A stretch of DNA of 64,000 nt from Candidatus Gastranaerophilales bacterium (GCA_944325555.1 CALVAN010000008.1:1-64000); one strand, 5' to 3'; shown: positions 29,559 to 37,056, numbered from the stretch's first letter. Notes: a model not told the origin generated them from the sequence alone. Made by a program: numbers and translations.

Positions 29559-30706
29559 ATGTTGTTTTTAATATCATTACTTATGGTGTTTGTATCTTCA
29601 TATATGTTATCTTGCGTGGCAGCCCCCAAGAATGAAGAAAACAGGTTATACGGACCGGCCCCGTTTTTGTATACATTGCTTACAATGTTTTCACAGGTAG
29701 TGTTGACATTCGAGATATTATCCCTGTTTAAGGCAATAAATGAGCCAAACGTACTTGTATTAAACGTAATATTTTTAGTAATAGCAGGAGTTTTGTGGTT
29801 TAAAAAAGGGAAGCCTGTATATATACCGGCAATAAAGACAAAGATGACGCAAATATGGACAGCATTAAAGCGTGATAAAATCCTGATGATAATGGCATTT
29901 GGCTTTGTTTTTCTGATGTTTACCGTCATCGTATTGGATGCTTTTCTTCCTGTTACCGGAGGTGATGCTCTTGCTTATCATTTGAACAGAGCTTCTTACT
30001 GGATGCAGCAGGGCAGTTTAAACCATTTTGTTATTGCAGATGACAGAAATCTCGTAATGCCGATAAACTCAGAGATATTGTATTTGTGGAATTTGTTGTT
30101 TTATAAAACAGATATAGGGTTGTACTTTATATCATTTATCGGTTATATAGTGTCAATATTCAGTATTTATAACATACTTGAGTATTTTAAATTTACGCAG
30201 AGACGGATATTGTGGAGTATATTTATATTATCATCGTTCGCCTCGGTAATAGTAGAATTGTCGAGTTTGGAAACGGATGTATTAATAGCGGGATTGGTTC
30301 TTTCCTCAATAACGTTATTTTTGAATGCGATAAAAGAAAGAAAGACGGGAATGCTGTGTTTTTCGGCATTGGCATATGCGTTGGCAATGGGAACGAAATC
30401 ACCGGCAGTAATAGCATTTCCGGGAGTATTTTTGTTAATGACCTATTTTGCATATCAAAGAGAGAAAAAAGAGTGTTATAAACCGCTATTGGCATATTTG
30501 TTGTTTTTGTTTGTAACGTTTATGATCTTTTCAAGTTATAACTACATATTAAACTTTATAGATTTTGGCAATCCCCTCGGCAGTGAATCGGCACGTGCAG
30601 TGCATGGATTCAGAGGCGGAATTAAGGCATTTGTAGCCAATTATATAAAATACATATTTATGTTGTTTGATTTTTCCGGTTTCAGATACAGCGAATATGT
30701 CGGAGA
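29559..30706 (+). repeat. 1148-bp exact direct repeat, first copy
   Basis: The same sequence recurs at 31800-32947. The identity starts at the start codon and ends within the codons for YVGE/YVGD; beyond this the two genes differ at many synonymous and replacement sites. Confidence 0.85.
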
Positions 30707-31754
30707 ACATATTATGAATGCCCGTGAGGCAATACTTTCGTTTTTGAAAATTCCTGCAGATCTTGGCGTTTCTATGGCCGATGACAATACAGTAAACAAT
30801 CATTTATATTCAACTGTTTCTTGTGCCGGCATTTTAGGCTTTCTTGTTTTCTTGCCATCATTGTTTACATCGATTGTATTGAGTGTAACTAAAAGGGACA
30901 GTAAAAAATACAATGTTATATCTGCATTTGGTGTGATGTTCTTGATAAATGTTGCTTGTCTTTCTTTTTCAATTGCATATATGTCATTTAGCGTAAGATT
31001 TTTAATGTTTTTAATTATTATTTCTGCTCCGCTTCTGGCTGTTTCGTATATTAAAAAGACAAATATAATAAAACTGTTGATATTATTTTTTGTAATGTCA
31101 TATTTTACAATTATTAGCGTAAATCTTATAGGACGAGATTTTAGCAGTATATGGAAAACATTAAAAAGGACGCAGACGCTTAACGAGGCTAGAGAACAAA
31201 TAAGATGTGCTTTATTTGACGGTTTTTACGGAACAAATTCATATTGCTTTATGAGAGATGAATTTATAACAAAACTTCCGCAAGAAACTAAAATTGCTCT
31301 TTTTCCGGATTATGTGGATAAAACATACATACTTGATTTGTTAAACAGCCATGGATACAGAATAGATACGCTTATGGCTGAAAATGCGCCTAATTATAAA
31401 TACGATGATTATGATTATATAATTACTACAAAGGAAAATTATATAGTAAGCTCCTTGCTGCTAAATATGACTAAAAACGTTAAAACCACATATGAAACCG
31501 ATAAAAGCGGTTCAAAGGCCTATGTTCCTAAAAATGTGTATTTTCAGTGTATATATGGTACTGAGAAAAGTAAATTTTTTGTAAGTTCTCAAAATAATAA
31601 TGAAGGAACAATAATAAATACTCAGTGTTATATAAGTGAAGAATTCTTTGCGGATAGAGGGTTCGAGTTGTATCGAATATATGATTTTCCCAATCAGAAC
31701 GGAATATATAAAAATTTTGTGAGAATTTACAAAAATAAAAACAGGAATAAATAA
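29559..31754 (+). CDS. Polytopic membrane protein, GT-C glycosyltransferase-like (paralog 1)
   Basis: 731 aa with about 11-13 predicted helices over residues 1-540 and a soluble C-terminal domain (~190 aa). An early loop after helix 4 reads TGGDALAYHLNRASYWMQQG. The acidic residue and YH(L) near the start of a large first loop resemble the catalytic Asp loop of GT-C enzymes (ArnT/PMT-like), which use lipid-linked sugars. This is fold-level inference only. The first 1148 bp (29559-30706) match the next gene base for base as far as I can see; the remainder is clearly diverged. Confidence 0.65.
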   Translation: MLFLISLLMVFVSSYMLSCVAAPKNEENRLYGPAPFLYTLLTMFSQVVLTFEILSLFKAINEPNVLVLNVIFLVIAGVLWFKKGKPVYIPAIKTKMTQIWTALKRDKILMIMAFGFVFLMFTVIVLDAFLPVTGGDALAYHLNRASYWMQQGSLNHFVIADDRNLVMPINSEILYLWNLLFYKTDIGLYFISFIGYIVSIFSIYNILEYFKFTQRRILWSIFILSSFASVIVELSSLETDVLIAGLVLSSITLFLNAIKERKTGMLCFSALAYALAMGTKSPAVIAFPGVFLLMTYFAYQREKKECYKPLLAYLLFLFVTFMIFSSYNYILNFIDFGNPLGSESARAVHGFRGGIKAFVANYIKYIFMLFDFSGFRYSEYVGEHIMNAREAILSFLKIPADLGVSMADDNTVNNHLYSTVSCAGILGFLVFLPSLFTSIVLSVTKRDSKKYNVISAFGVMFLINVACLSFSIAYMSFSVRFLMFLIIISAPLLAVSYIKKTNIIKLLILFFVMSYFTIISVNLIGRDFSSIWKTLKRTQTLNEAREQIRCALFDGFYGTNSYCFMRDEFITKLPQETKIALFPDYVDKTYILDLLNSHGYRIDTLMAENAPNYKYDDYDYIITTKENYIVSSLLLNMTKNVKTTYETDKSGSKAYVPKNVYFQCIYGTEKSKFFVSSQNNNEGTIINTQCYISEEFFADRGFELYRIYDFPNQNGIYKNFVRIYKNKNRNK

Positions 31755-31799: not shown

Positions 31800-32947
31800 A
31801 TGTTGTTTTTAATATCATTACTTATGGTGTTTGTATCTTCATATATGTTATCTTGCGTGGCAGCCCCCAAGAATGAAGAAAACAGGTTATACGGACCGGC
31901 CCCGTTTTTGTATACATTGCTTACAATGTTTTCACAGGTAGTGTTGACATTCGAGATATTATCCCTGTTTAAGGCAATAAATGAGCCAAACGTACTTGTA
32001 TTAAACGTAATATTTTTAGTAATAGCAGGAGTTTTGTGGTTTAAAAAAGGGAAGCCTGTATATATACCGGCAATAAAGACAAAGATGACGCAAATATGGA
32101 CAGCATTAAAGCGTGATAAAATCCTGATGATAATGGCATTTGGCTTTGTTTTTCTGATGTTTACCGTCATCGTATTGGATGCTTTTCTTCCTGTTACCGG
32201 AGGTGATGCTCTTGCTTATCATTTGAACAGAGCTTCTTACTGGATGCAGCAGGGCAGTTTAAACCATTTTGTTATTGCAGATGACAGAAATCTCGTAATG
32301 CCGATAAACTCAGAGATATTGTATTTGTGGAATTTGTTGTTTTATAAAACAGATATAGGGTTGTACTTTATATCATTTATCGGTTATATAGTGTCAATAT
32401 TCAGTATTTATAACATACTTGAGTATTTTAAATTTACGCAGAGACGGATATTGTGGAGTATATTTATATTATCATCGTTCGCCTCGGTAATAGTAGAATT
32501 GTCGAGTTTGGAAACGGATGTATTAATAGCGGGATTGGTTCTTTCCTCAATAACGTTATTTTTGAATGCGATAAAAGAAAGAAAGACGGGAATGCTGTGT
32601 TTTTCGGCATTGGCATATGCGTTGGCAATGGGAACGAAATCACCGGCAGTAATAGCATTTCCGGGAGTATTTTTGTTAATGACCTATTTTGCATATCAAA
32701 GAGAGAAAAAAGAGTGTTATAAACCGCTATTGGCATATTTGTTGTTTTTGTTTGTAACGTTTATGATCTTTTCAAGTTATAACTACATATTAAACTTTAT
32801 AGATTTTGGCAATCCCCTCGGCAGTGAATCGGCACGTGCAGTGCATGGATTCAGAGGCGGAATTAAGGCATTTGTAGCCAATTATATAAAATACATATTT
32901 ATGTTGTTTGATTTTTCCGGTTTCAGATACAGCGAATATGTCGGAGA
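31800..32947 (+). repeat. 1148-bp exact direct repeat, second copy
   Basis: Second copy of 29559-30706, in direct orientation, 1.09 kb after the end of the first. Confidence 0.85.
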
Positions 32948-33983
32948 TTATATCTTAAGGGCAAGAGAAGCAGTGCTTGCATTTTTGCATATACCGATGG
33001 ATCTCGGTGTGGAAATGTCCGATAATAACGAAATCAATAACAGGTTGCTGAACGTGAAAACAGGTGCGGGAATTTTAGGATTCCTTGTTTTCTTACCGTC
33101 ATTGATTGCATCGGTTGTGTTGAGTATAACAAAAAGACACAGTAAAAAGTATAATGTTATATCCGCATTTGGTGTGATGTTTTTGATAAATATTGCATGT
33201 CTTTCTTTTTCAATTGCATATATGGTATTCAGTATAAGATTTGTGACATTTTTGATTGTGATTTCGGCACCTCTGCTTGCTGTTTCATATATTAAAAAGA
33301 CAAATATAATAAAACTGTTGATATTGTTTTTTGTGATGTCTTATTTTGTTATTATCAGTGTAAATCTTTCGGGTAGAGGATTTGTAGATATTTTTAATAC
33401 AATTTTAAAAACACCGACGCTCATGCACGCACGTGAACGGATAAGATGTGCATTATATGTGGGTTTTGAAGGGAAAAATGCCTATTGCTATATAAGAGAC
33501 TATATACAGCAAAAAACTCCCAAAGGTGCACGAATTGGCTTGTTTGCCGATGCTTTGGATAATATTTATATTGTAAATATTATGAACAATCAGGGATATA
33601 AGATTGATACATTGCTCCCTGAAAATGCACCGAATTATAAATATGATGATTATGACTATATCTTTGTTACAAAGCAGGTTTTAACAAGTACGGTATTATT
33701 AAAAGAAACTAAAGATATAAAAACAGAGTATAAAATTGCCCCGAACGGCAATGCATATTATCCGAAATACAGACCTTTTTCTTGTGTATATGAAAAACAC
33801 GGCGGAGGGTTCTATACATCTGATCAGTATAAGGATGGGGCGATTGTAATGGATTCTCGCTGCTATATTGACCATAATTTCTTTGAACCTAAAGGTTATG
33901 CTGTCAAACAAATTTATGATTTTCGTTCGGAAAACATACGTTATCAAGGGTATGTGACAATATATGAAAAAGTAAAGAAATAA
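31800..33983 (+). CDS. Polytopic membrane protein, GT-C glycosyltransferase-like (paralog 2)
   Basis: 727 aa, tandem copy of the preceding gene at an offset of 2241 nt. The first ~382 residues are identical; afterwards the helices stay similar (e.g. GAGILGFLVFLPSL, SYIKKTNIIKLLILFFVMSYF) while the C-terminal soluble domain differs widely. Conserved landmarks in both are LPENAPNYKYDDYDYI / MAENAPNYKYDDYDYI. The upstream 45 nt of the two genes are related but not identical, so the exact match begins at the ATG. The probable role is the same membrane sugar transfer with a different acceptor or donor specificity; this is inference. Confidence 0.65.
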   Translation: MLFLISLLMVFVSSYMLSCVAAPKNEENRLYGPAPFLYTLLTMFSQVVLTFEILSLFKAINEPNVLVLNVIFLVIAGVLWFKKGKPVYIPAIKTKMTQIWTALKRDKILMIMAFGFVFLMFTVIVLDAFLPVTGGDALAYHLNRASYWMQQGSLNHFVIADDRNLVMPINSEILYLWNLLFYKTDIGLYFISFIGYIVSIFSIYNILEYFKFTQRRILWSIFILSSFASVIVELSSLETDVLIAGLVLSSITLFLNAIKERKTGMLCFSALAYALAMGTKSPAVIAFPGVFLLMTYFAYQREKKECYKPLLAYLLFLFVTFMIFSSYNYILNFIDFGNPLGSESARAVHGFRGGIKAFVANYIKYIFMLFDFSGFRYSEYVGDYILRAREAVLAFLHIPMDLGVEMSDNNEINNRLLNVKTGAGILGFLVFLPSLIASVVLSITKRHSKKYNVISAFGVMFLINIACLSFSIAYMVFSIRFVTFLIVISAPLLAVSYIKKTNIIKLLILFFVMSYFVIISVNLSGRGFVDIFNTILKTPTLMHARERIRCALYVGFEGKNAYCYIRDYIQQKTPKGARIGLFADALDNIYIVNIMNNQGYKIDTLLPENAPNYKYDDYDYIFVTKQVLTSTVLLKETKDIKTEYKIAPNGNAYYPKYRPFSCVYEKHGGGFYTSDQYKDGAIVMDSRCYIDHNFFEPKGYAVKQIYDFRSENIRYQGYVTIYEKVKK

Positions 33984-33999
33984 AATTGACACTGGCTTT

Positions 34000-34195
34000 T
34001 GTCAAAAGTAAAATTTAAAAAAGAGGGAACAGGGGTGAAAATCCCCGGCTGAGCCGCAACCGTATAGCCGGAATACTCTTTGTCATTGTTAATGGCAAAC
34101 AAAACCATTGCTTCGGGATTTAGGCATGGAGTCATATTTTAAGCAGAGCTTATTGTATCCTTGTTTATTCCGCAGCACAGAGGAATTAAGAACAG
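34000..34195 (+). promoter_or_regulatory. Probable cobalamin (B12) riboswitch
   Basis: The core at about 34022-34070 reads GAGGGAACAGGGGTGAAAAT, then CCCCGGCTGAGCCGCAAC and CGTATAGCCGG. It fits the cobalamin aptamer: conserved GGGAA, a GGTG-AAA-TCC stem, the CCGCAAC loop and the closing CCGG stem. Downstream is a variable arm (34080-34115), a degenerate GGAGTC segment in place of a full B12 box, and a hairpin ATTCC/GGAAT (near 34168-34187) just before the ribosome site, which could form the kissing-loop expression platform. It lies in the leader of the gene at 34208. Confidence 0.78.
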
Positions 34196-34207
34196 GGATA
34201 ATTTTTT

Positions 34208-34918
34208 ATGGCAGCAACGCTTTCAAGAGCAGCTAATAACAACAGAATAGGAACCTGTCCGCATGGTTTACCTTTGGGGGCGTGCCCTATTTGCAACGGT
34301 ATGGGCGGAGGCGGAAGCGTAAAAAAAGACAACAAACCTAAAGAAATGACATGGAATGAATGTTATGCTATCGGGCAGATGCTTAAAGCTCAAAAAGAAG
34401 CAAGGCTCCATACACAACAGATGTTTGCTGCACAAACTCTGCAGGCTCATCTTGATAACATACAATCGCAAATTAACGCAATGAAACTGGCTATATTAAA
34501 TTCCTCCCTACCCAAACCATTAGCAAAGGCTTTAACAGTTGCATTGGATGTTATAGTGACACCTGCAGCTAAAGCATTACAAATGATAAGCAACACCGTT
34601 CAAAACTTTGCCAACAATATAACAAAGGCTGTTGATTCTTTCAAACAAAAGATAATCGACATAGCAGACAAGATTACGGCAATGTTAGGCGAAGCCAAAG
34701 CTGCCATAGAAAAGAAAATTTCAGACAAGCTCAAAGATGTTAAAAAGAAAATTTTCTCCCTTTTTGGCATTGCGGGAGCAGACAACGAAGAAGATGAAGA
34801 AGTAAAAAGAATAGAAGAACAAAAGTTAATACACGAAGAAAACACAACAAAAGAAACACTGTTTCAAAACAAAAACTTCCCCGAACAAACTGTCACCCAA
34901 CAAGAAAGCGAAGACTAA
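34208..34918 (+). CDS. Unknown protein with CxH..CxxC motif, first gene after the B12 riboswitch
   Basis: 236 aa, not recognised. Near the N-terminus is GTCPHGLPLGACPICNGMGG, a compact Cys-His/Cys-Cys cluster (residues ~17-29) that could bind a metal, followed by a Gly-rich hinge. Residues ~70-185 are long amphipathic helices with alternating Ala/Ile and Lys (KAVDSFKQKIIDIADKITAM), apolipoprotein-like, and the C-terminus is acidic and disordered. There is no signal peptide or true membrane helix, so peripheral membrane association is possible. It is followed 3 nt later by the next gene, and the pair must be co-transcribed under the riboswitch. Confidence 0.7.
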   Translation: MAATLSRAANNNRIGTCPHGLPLGACPICNGMGGGGSVKKDNKPKEMTWNECYAIGQMLKAQKEARLHTQQMFAAQTLQAHLDNIQSQINAMKLAILNSSLPKPLAKALTVALDVIVTPAAKALQMISNTVQNFANNITKAVDSFKQKIIDIADKITAMLGEAKAAIEKKISDKLKDVKKKIFSLFGIAGADNEEDEEVKRIEEQKLIHEENTTKETLFQNKNFPEQTVTQQESED

Positions 34919-34921
34919 TTA

Positions 34922-36481
34922 ATGAGTTATATAAAACCGTATCAGGATCTGGAAACCCAAAAACAATACAGAAATCATACACAAACACAAAAAAAGAATA
35001 TATCAGAGTTAAAAGAAGGTGTTGTTGTCAATAACCTTATAAAAGACAGAGATGTGTTCTCAACGTCTTTAACAGCTGATATTGATAATATGTATGATAA
35101 CCTTGTTATTCCCGACAAAACAATAAAACCATCAACATTTGATAACAGAGATTTTAAACAGCAAAAGGAAAAATCTCTGCAACATTCTCTCACCCCGCTT
35201 CTGGTCACTACTGTCGGAGTTTTTGCATTGCTTGCAGGCTCAATGTTCGGTTTGAGAAAAGCGGCCGAAATTAAGAAAAATCTTAAGCCTTGGCAGACAC
35301 TGCAAGAGGTGACAAAACATGTTTCCGTAAACGATGAACCTCACCTTGCAATGCTTTTAATGATTCGTGACCCTAATTACCGTAATGTAATGGGGGCGCT
35401 GGGTGTCTTTGTACTCAGTTCAATAGGCTTTGTTGCTAAAAATTTTGTTGACGGCGTTAAGGAAATATGGGTAAGAAAAAAACAGGCTGATGTGCAAAGA
35501 AACCTTCAAGAACAGCTTATTGAAGTTGAAACAAAAAGCTTTTCTGGCAAAATGCAAATTTTAAGAAATATGCTTGCTGAAAAAGCTAAAGAATTAAACT
35601 CCGTGCTTCATAAAAATAACGTAGGTAATGAAAATACCACATTTAAAAAGTTTATTTCCTTTAAAAATTCACAAAATGCAATTTCAAATTCTGCTTCGGA
35701 TAATGAAAAACGCAATAATTTGCTTGCCGCGGCAGGTGTAGGACTCAGTGCTGCTATCGTTGCCGTTCTTGGCGTTTTGTCGATGAAAAATCTTTCCAAG
35801 GCGGCAAAAACATGTGAAGATATAGCTGCTACAACATTAAAGGAATTTGGCGGTAATTTTTCAAAGATAGAAAATCCCTCGCAAAATGTGCTTGAAAAAC
35901 TGAAAAACAGAATCGTTTCTCTGAATTTGAACAAAAAAGAACTTGACGAGTTCTTTGCTGATTTAACCAATCTGCCAGCAGGTGAATATACTGCATTTAA
36001 CGGGGAAACATATAAAAATTATAAAGATTATGTTGTCAGAGAAGTGGAAAAACTCACGGATGAAGGTGCCGAAGCAATTGCGGGCAAACCGTCCAATAAA
36101 CCCGTTTTATTTTCTTATACGGGAGATTTGTGCTCGCATCTGTACAATATGATAGTTAATCCTCACAGTCCTCTTCTAAAAATGGTGTTTGGCGGTATGG
36201 CTGCTGTAACTACCGTGGGTTATGTCGGTGCAAAAACAGTTGAAGCGGTGAAAGAGGCAGAGGTAATAAAAGAGAATGCAAAAACGGAACTTGAACTGCA
36301 AAAACGTCTTGTCAGTGTTGAGTTGAAAAACTTTGAAACAAAAAAACGCAGTGTAATTGAGCCTTTGATGGATGAATTCAGAGTGCAGGCAATGAACGGT
36401 AAAGATAAGACTGAGCTTAAAACAAGAGCCGAAAATATTCTGTACGAAATCAAAAACGGGCCGCCGTTTGTTTACTCGTAA
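34922..36481 (+). CDS. Unknown membrane protein with coiled coils, second gene of the B12-linked operon
   Basis: 519 aa, not recognised. A polar N-terminus (~95 residues) precedes about four hydrophobic segments: LLVTTVGVFALLAGSMFGLR (~99-118), VMGALGVFVLSSIGFVAK (~160-177), AAAGVGLSAAIVAVLGVLSM (~267-286) and MVFGGMAAVTTVGYVGAKT (~426-444). After the second and fourth segments come charged helices with similar layout (VKEIWVRKKQADVQRNLQEQ and VKEAEVIKENAKTELELQKR), suggesting an internal duplication: paired membrane segments followed by a coiled coil. It contains a free Cys-His pair (GDLCSHLYN) near residue 405. Confidence 0.7.
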   Translation: MSYIKPYQDLETQKQYRNHTQTQKKNISELKEGVVVNNLIKDRDVFSTSLTADIDNMYDNLVIPDKTIKPSTFDNRDFKQQKEKSLQHSLTPLLVTTVGVFALLAGSMFGLRKAAEIKKNLKPWQTLQEVTKHVSVNDEPHLAMLLMIRDPNYRNVMGALGVFVLSSIGFVAKNFVDGVKEIWVRKKQADVQRNLQEQLIEVETKSFSGKMQILRNMLAEKAKELNSVLHKNNVGNENTTFKKFISFKNSQNAISNSASDNEKRNNLLAAAGVGLSAAIVAVLGVLSMKNLSKAAKTCEDIAATTLKEFGGNFSKIENPSQNVLEKLKNRIVSLNLNKKELDEFFADLTNLPAGEYTAFNGETYKNYKDYVVREVEKLTDEGAEAIAGKPSNKPVLFSYTGDLCSHLYNMIVNPHSPLLKMVFGGMAAVTTVGYVGAKTVEAVKEAEVIKENAKTELELQKRLVSVELKNFETKKRSVIEPLMDEFRVQAMNGKDKTELKTRAENILYEIKNGPPFVYS

Positions 36482-36501
36482 ACTTATAAGGAGAGCAGCT
36501 T

Positions 36502-37056
36502 ATGCATATACAGCCTGTTGTTTTTAAAAGCTTTTATTCAATGTCCTCAACTCCAGCTGTTTCCAAAAGGCAGGAACCGTGTCAAATGGTTGAAGATTTC
36601 AAAAAAACATTTGTATTGCCCGACGAAAAAATTAACCATGCAGTTTTTGATGAAAAACTTGCTCAAAAAATTGCTTCTTATAAAGAAAAGTCTGTTAATC
36701 CCGTTTTGGATATGCTTAAAAACACCAATGACGAAAAAGATATAACGGCGGGGTTGTTCCTGTTAAACAGAATAATAGATGCAGGTGCAAAAAATGTTGG
36801 GGATACATATCCTGTTATTTCCAGGTTTAATTATTCAAAATCACATAACGTTCAGGTAATGCTTGCGGGTATTTACAGAAAAACTCTGGTTCCTGATGCT
36901 TTTGGACCTTTGATGACAATGTTTTTGAAAAATTCACAAAACCCGGTGCAAATACCTTTTGATCCTAATGAAGAAGTCGGTGGTGCAATACTTGAATATT
37001 TACGAAATAAAAATGCATCAGAGGCCTACGGCTCTATTTTGCAGCTGCGAGCATAA
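36502..37056 (+). CDS. Unknown helical-repeat protein, third gene of the B12-linked operon
   Basis: 184 aa. A leader MHIQPVVFKSFYSMSSTPAV is followed by all-helical sequence resembling HEAT-type repeats: VNPVLDMLKNTNDEKDITAG, LFLLNRIIDAGAKNVGDTYP, VMLAGIYRKTLVPDAFGPL and VGGAILEYLRNKNASEAYG. Such folds usually mediate protein binding. AAGGAG is 9 nt before the ATG. It is 20 nt after the previous stop, so it is the likely last gene of the transcript. Confidence 0.65.
   Translation: MHIQPVVFKSFYSMSSTPAVSKRQEPCQMVEDFKKTFVLPDEKINHAVFDEKLAQKIASYKEKSVNPVLDMLKNTNDEKDITAGLFLLNRIIDAGAKNVGDTYPVISRFNYSKSHNVQVMLAGIYRKTLVPDAFGPLMTMFLKNSQNPVQIPFDPNEEVGGAILEYLRNKNASEAYGSILQLRA

Follow-up and report, generated by a model that had tools for sequence, protein, structure and literature searches.

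Cobalamin riboswitches have the synthesis, transport and use of B12 as their targets (PMC9600662). What does such a switch control when it stands before three genes of no recognisable kind? This question is raised by a locus in a 64,000-nucleotide stretch of DNA (the window) from a genome of Candidatus Gastranaerophilales (gut Vampirovibrionia), labelled G000 here. The Gastranaerophilales, relatives of cyanobacteria, are common in the gut, and most have yet to be cultured. A preliminary description had proposed that a cobalamin-type riboswitch in this window precedes an operon of three proteins that could assemble in the envelope, for example to take up or store corrinoids. The features of the locus are as follows.

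34006..34086, + strand: AdoCbl-II (class II cobalamin) riboswitch aptamer, from the RF01689 match and P4 covariation in 40 orthologous aptamers
34105..34129, + strand: short hairpin 3' of the aptamer, CCAT...ATGG around GCTTCGGGATTTAGGC, candidate P13, from sequence comparison; kept in the genus
34156..34207, + strand: predicted expression platform, a hairpin (34156-34200) and six U abutting the start codon, from leader comparison and complementary arms
34208..34918, + strand: ORF1, 236 aa, a CPHG-x5-CPxC motif followed by long amphipathic helices, from sequence, alignment and model
34922..36481, + strand: ORF2, 519 aa, about four hydrophobic spans, two long helices and an internal duplication, from sequence, hhalign and model
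36502..37056, + strand: ORF3, 184 aa, a small conserved helical-looking domain, from sequence comparison

An AdoCbl-II aptamer and a predicted OFF switch

Scanning the 64 kb window against all of Rfam with cmscan returned a single family above its gathering threshold, the AdoCbl-II riboswitch RF01689 (39.1 bits against a threshold of 36.5, E = 9e-6), with a full-length match (positions 1-81 of 81); RF00174 scored 24.2 bits at the same site, under its own cut-off. The claim of a cobalamin-type riboswitch thus stands. Forty distinct aptamers from operon leaders gave a good alignment, in which four of the five pairs of P4 carry compensatory changes, with both sides altered and pairing kept; these changes occur in 8 to 21 sequences per pair, and breaks are few except at the outermost pair. 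In a test of L5-L13 kissing, the window's own L5 scored no better than the L5 of other genomes. Because the class II aptamers of Rfam can differ in the upper ligand that they prefer, we grade AdoCbl only as the likely ligand of this riboswitch.

The aptamer ends 121 nt before ORF1. The arms of the platform hairpin in the window are TATCCTTGTTT and GAACAGGGATA, and the Shine-Dalgarno stretch lies within the 3' arm. Other leaders carry hairpins with arms GTCCTCT/AGAGGAT, ATCCTGTG/CACAGGAT and GTCTTTTTTG/CAAAAAAGGC; the arms vary between lineages and their complementarity is kept. For 27 of the 68 distinct leaders, no more than 5 in 100 dinucleotide-shuffled versions reached the hairpin score, compared with about 3 such leaders expected. 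This layout suggests an OFF switch, with a concealed ribosome-binding site and possibly a terminator too, and since the hairpin would conceal the ribosome-binding site before ORF1, we predict that B12 represses the operon. In a published survey, the cobalamin riboswitches that were functional in in vivo reporters acted by repression (PMC9600662). A short ORF after the aptamer (about 34093-34143), considered as a uORF, was missing in the neighbours read by eye and was dropped.

Three proteins outside known families

The three genes lie close together, with 3 nt between ORF1 and ORF2 and 20 nt between ORF2 and ORF3. No match to any of the encoded proteins was found in Pfam, NCBIfam, PADLOC, PDB or Foldseek searches. 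The preliminary description of the three proteins was right in outline. An anti-phage defence system was discarded, as no PADLOC model fits ORF1-ORF3.

In ORF1, residues 15-36 are near-invariant (GTCPHGLPxGACPxCxGMGGG), and C17, H19, C26, C29 and C52 are invariant in 58 of 58 aligned orthologues; the CxH..CxxC motif noted earlier in this protein, together with amphipathic helices, is accordingly an invariant C-P-H-G-x5-C-P-x-C. Beyond the N-terminal motif ORF1 is helical by prediction, at low confidence (pLDDT 58), and it has no apparent signal peptide and no clear membrane span. The single match in PHROGs was a weak one, of the helical part of ORF1 to a tail-lysozyme family (E = 4e-4). Weak matches scattered over apolipoprotein, SctB2, hemolysin BL L1 and cobalamin adenosyltransferase (E 0.015-0.07) were set aside because this level is expected for helical, low-complexity proteins. 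An N-terminal FxG motif was also rejected as a lineage feature, showing no enrichment (2.2% versus 3.3% in internal windows).

ORF2 had been described as a four-span membrane protein with an internal duplication, and this agrees with its approximately four spans, its long helices and the homology of its halves (hhalign probability 96.9%); some orthologues have just two or three hydrophobic spans above threshold. Its C-terminus, KNGPPF(V/I)YS, is invariant. The ORF2 model is of low confidence (pLDDT 59.5), and Foldseek with this model gave no match below E 0.09. ORF3 has a conserved core with PDAFGPL and FDPNE motifs, and a HEAT-like character is plausible.

The make-up of ORF1 bears on one explanation of the operon, corrinoid storage or trafficking, in which CPHG-CPxC would bind a corrinoid or cobalt and deliver it to an adenosyltransferase or to NrdJ, the AdoCbl-dependent class II RNR. 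An invariant N-terminal Cys/His cluster in a protein lacking a signal peptide is consistent with this idea, as are the two BtuR copies of NrdJ genomes. However, zinc is the metal more usually bound by a CxH-CxxC cluster, the equally conserved membrane protein ORF2 is left unexplained, and high B12 would be expected to switch storage genes on rather than off. We therefore hold storage or trafficking to be quite improbable.

Linkage of switch and operon across the family

Relatives of ORF2 in GTDB were sought with two exact peptide patterns, a scan that is weak on distant relatives outside the order; it returned 309 encoding stretches, the best 79 of which were taken for reading. The records give these relatives as Candidatus Gastranaerophilales or Melainabacteria, or in some cases under other names, and as far as a scan insensitive to distant relatives can tell, the operon appears confined to Gastranaerophilales. 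The family sample comprised 191 genomes from 41 genera; they are mostly or all metagenome assemblies, in which single-genome absences may represent gaps. Statements of presence or absence in G000 itself come from single-query searches.

A profile search found ORF1 in 167 of the 191 genomes (38 of 41 genera); ORF2 is present in 161 and RF01689 in 176. Counted per genome, ORF1 and the switch occur together in 166, ORF1 without the switch in 1, the switch without ORF1 in 10 and neither in 14 (Fisher p = 4.6e-14, which overstates independence because the genomes are related). Both are missing from all 8 genomes of genus g26, from two genomes of g41 and from one genome each in the genera g16, g17, g31 and g39. 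For at least 118 of the 150 ORF1 genes listed, an RF01689 site precedes the gene on its own strand at a distance of 52-226 nt (median 84). Within the genus of the window it is present in 23 of 23 genomes, one or two copies each, and in loci of other genera a cobalamin riboswitch precedes the operon in 15 of 15 cases (13 RF01689, 2 RF00174). The pairing of switch and operon is a family-wide feature, far beyond chance. Our literature search found no published account of an ORF1-ORF2-ORF3 operon, and the earlier suggestion of an undescribed B12-regulated operon is supported by a riboswitch that is both found here and kept before orthologues.

The same data bear on the idea that B12 does not control the operon, the aptamer having arisen by chance or been left behind by a lost gene. 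ORF1-ORF3 have no known B12 link, as this idea would have it, but it is refuted by the family-wide linkage, the joint loss and the compensatory changes in P4, and we give it next to no weight.

Reading of 76 loci found ORF1, ORF2 and ORF3 in 76, 76 and 73 of them, respectively, amid flanking genes that change; the constant genes are ORF1-ORF3 only, and the neighbours across these loci offer no functional clue. A gene starting MGMAASQARFLGLTAR, of 330-460 aa, lies 3' of ORF3 in 29 loci (L099 among them), mostly 50-160 nt away. In g25 and g30 (L179, L180, L181, L183, L186 and L187) ORF2 is missing and ORF1 is followed by two ORF3-like genes. In one genome of the window's genus (L021, G003:C1:121641-123413) the riboswitch operon has an NrdJ gene immediately before it. 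The window itself carries, just 5' of the riboswitch, tandem PMT_2-type glycosyltransferase genes (29559-31754 and 31800-33983) that are identical over their first ~390 residues and differ in their C-terminal parts, which reads as a recent duplication or gene conversion.

Other genes under the same switch

G000 has only one other RF01689 site, G000:C1:134356-134430, directly before nrdD, a class III RNR (L001, L007). Across the family, we read 40 switch loci, almost all of which precede the operon, nrdD-nrdG or btuB-btuC-btuD-btuF (NrdD, NrdG and Btu identities by sequence inspection), with nrdD-nrdG the commonest second target. Six of the ten genomes with a switch and no ORF1 were read: the next gene is btuB in three (G074, G100 and G124) and nrdD in the other three (G082, G127 and G193). 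In g18, ORF1 is absent from all five sampled genomes and BtuC is present in four; the switch precedes btuB-btuC in G074, G100 and G124, and the fourth, G039, carries both genes. An exception to the three classes is the RF01689 site at G033:C7:7656-7733 (L197, 44 bits), which may have yet another undescribed target: the genes after it encode an unrecognised protein of 94 aa, a small secreted protein and a QueD-like protein.

That nrdD-nrdG, a B12-independent stand-in for NrdJ, should be the commonest second target favours an explanation of the operon as a B12-sparing substitute, which would do the task of a B12-dependent protein without B12 and come on when B12 runs out; the targets of cobalamin riboswitches, moreover, fall into two standard classes, and metabolic substitutes make up one of them. 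Against this, ORF1-ORF3 have no enzyme resemblance and no recognisable catalytic motif, and the distribution of B12 enzymes, given below, also weighs on the question.

B12 need and supply

NrdJ scored over cut-off in 126 of 191 genomes, G000 included (730 bits), and MetH-type B12-binding proteins were found in 23 of 191, with G000 among those without. Two BtuR/CobA adenosyltransferases are encoded in G000 (G000:C2:6592-7182 and G000:C18:23044-23583), as in most NrdJ-bearing genomes searched. Joined queries (E. coli QueG, CobS, CobT, CobU and BtuR, and a BtuB from the family) were run against 28 genomes; QueG, CobS, CobT and CobU were found in none of them, at a sensitivity limited by the E. 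coli queries. BtuB was present in only four of the 28, and G000 has no BtuB-like receptor. Only 15 of the 191 genomes, G000 not among them, gave a BtuC-like permease; BtuC and ORF1 occur together in 11 genomes, and strict mutual exclusion of BtuC and the operon was rejected, the anticorrelation over the family being non-significant (p = 0.10). G000 has NrdJ and BtuR and gave no hit to the queries for BtuC, BtuB and CobS/T/U, the last of these for the nucleotide-loop pathway; it therefore seems to be an AdoCbl user that neither makes cobalamin nor has a BtuBCDF importer.

Four genera, g9, g21, g24 and g29, keep switch and operon in sampled members that, with rare exceptions, lack NrdJ, BtuR and MetH, so the operon is not simply the partner of NrdJ. 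These four mostly have one or more B12-binding-domain proteins of ~470 aa, probably B12 radical-SAM proteins, which are also found in g26, a genus with neither switch nor operon. In another genome, seven consecutive B12-binding-domain proteins of ~530 aa each are encoded at G174:C1:354517-364439.

A B12-sparing substitute would be expected to have a B12 enzyme as its counterpart, and no single one is obvious, because the operon is kept with or without NrdJ and with or without MetH. We consider a substitute unlikely on balance.

The persistence of the switch in genomes with little apparent B12 metabolism, among them G042, which has the highest-scoring aptamer of the family (54.4 bits), lends weight to another explanation: B12 might serve as a cue for a structure of the envelope or cell surface (for remodelling of membranes, for secretion, or for contact with neighbours or the host) outside B12 metabolism. 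Hydrophobic spans and long, amphipathic helices do suggest a membrane assembly, and M. tuberculosis offers a parallel in ppe2, whose function is uncertain and which follows a B12 riboswitch (PMC11260477). Yet ORF1-ORF3 contain no signal peptides and no adhesin or secretion domains, and both other targets of the switch in the family are B12-economy genes. To our minds such a cue is about as improbable as a B12-sparing substitute.

A candidate system for corrinoid acquisition or handling

The explanation that we prefer, at a probability of roughly 40%, is that the operon encodes a cobalamin-repressed, membrane-associated system of three proteins for corrinoid acquisition or handling, which would take the place of BtuBCDF. 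We favour it because it would serve a genome that uses AdoCbl without BtuC, BtuB or CobS/T/U, and because the switch is shared with nrdDG and btuBCDF. A bolder form, that ORF1-ORF3 are a new corrinoid uptake system unrelated to BtuBCDF, ECF and BtuM and the main B12 importer of the whole order, is more doubtful. Against the preferred explanation, ORF1-ORF3 have no sequence or fold similarity to transporters or corrinoid-binding proteins, in comparisons that include models of low confidence. Two further points weigh against it: BtuC and the operon do not strictly exclude each other, and g9, g21, g24 and g29 retain the operon with the B12-binding, radical-SAM-like proteins as their sole B12 candidates. 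The envelope assembly first proposed for this locus, with a role in taking up or storing corrinoids, holds in part: it fits an AdoCbl user with no recognised importer, but ORF1-ORF3 resemble no transporter, and the envelope location comes from hydrophobicity only.

Under the preferred explanation, scarce B12 would leave the aptamer empty and the ribosome-binding site of ORF1 free, and ORF1-ORF3 would be made; with ample AdoCbl, the hairpin before ORF1 would form and shut the operon. ORF2 would reside in the inner membrane, ORF1 could bind metal or corrinoid in the cytoplasm and attach to the membrane by its amphipathic helices, and ORF3 may act as a helical scaffold. Jointly, they would raise the supply of corrinoid to AdoCbl enzymes, for example NrdJ.

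The riboswitch marks ORF1-ORF3 in ~85% of sampled genomes, making them a concrete candidate for the missing B12 step, and from this linkage the operon would be a so far undescribed part of how the family acquires B12 or copes with it. ORF1-ORF3 represent three new protein families whose context is predicted. They would be relevant to modelling how gut bacteria compete for B12, and would be a case in which an RNA element points to the role of proteins that resist placement by sequence and fold searches.

Comparison with known systems

The M. tuberculosis ppe2 gene, like the operon, combines a B12 riboswitch with uncertain function, but PPE2 belongs to an unrelated protein family and its riboswitch is atypical, with translation of a uORF (PMC11260477). 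The nrdD-nrdG genes share the riboswitch class and, at G000:C1:134356, the genome; they differ in encoding a known B12-independent enzyme, whereas the ORF1-ORF3 operon contains no enzyme such as MetE or NrdD. The btuB and btuBCDF operons have in common with it a cobalamin riboswitch leader and, by analogy, repression by B12, and the same switch is found before btuB-btuC in g18 and in a few further genomes of the family; however, ORF1-ORF3 include no TonB-dependent receptor, FecCD permease, ABC ATPase or periplasmic binding protein. B12 importers other than BtuCDF do exist: BtuM and ECF-CbrT are small, unrelated inner-membrane proteins, and in BtuM a cysteine is a ligand of the cobalt. General family and fold searches, as distinct from a head-to-head comparison, found no similarity between them and ORF1-ORF3. 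BtuM and ECF-CbrT set a precedent for B12 uptake by small, unrelated proteins of the inner membrane.
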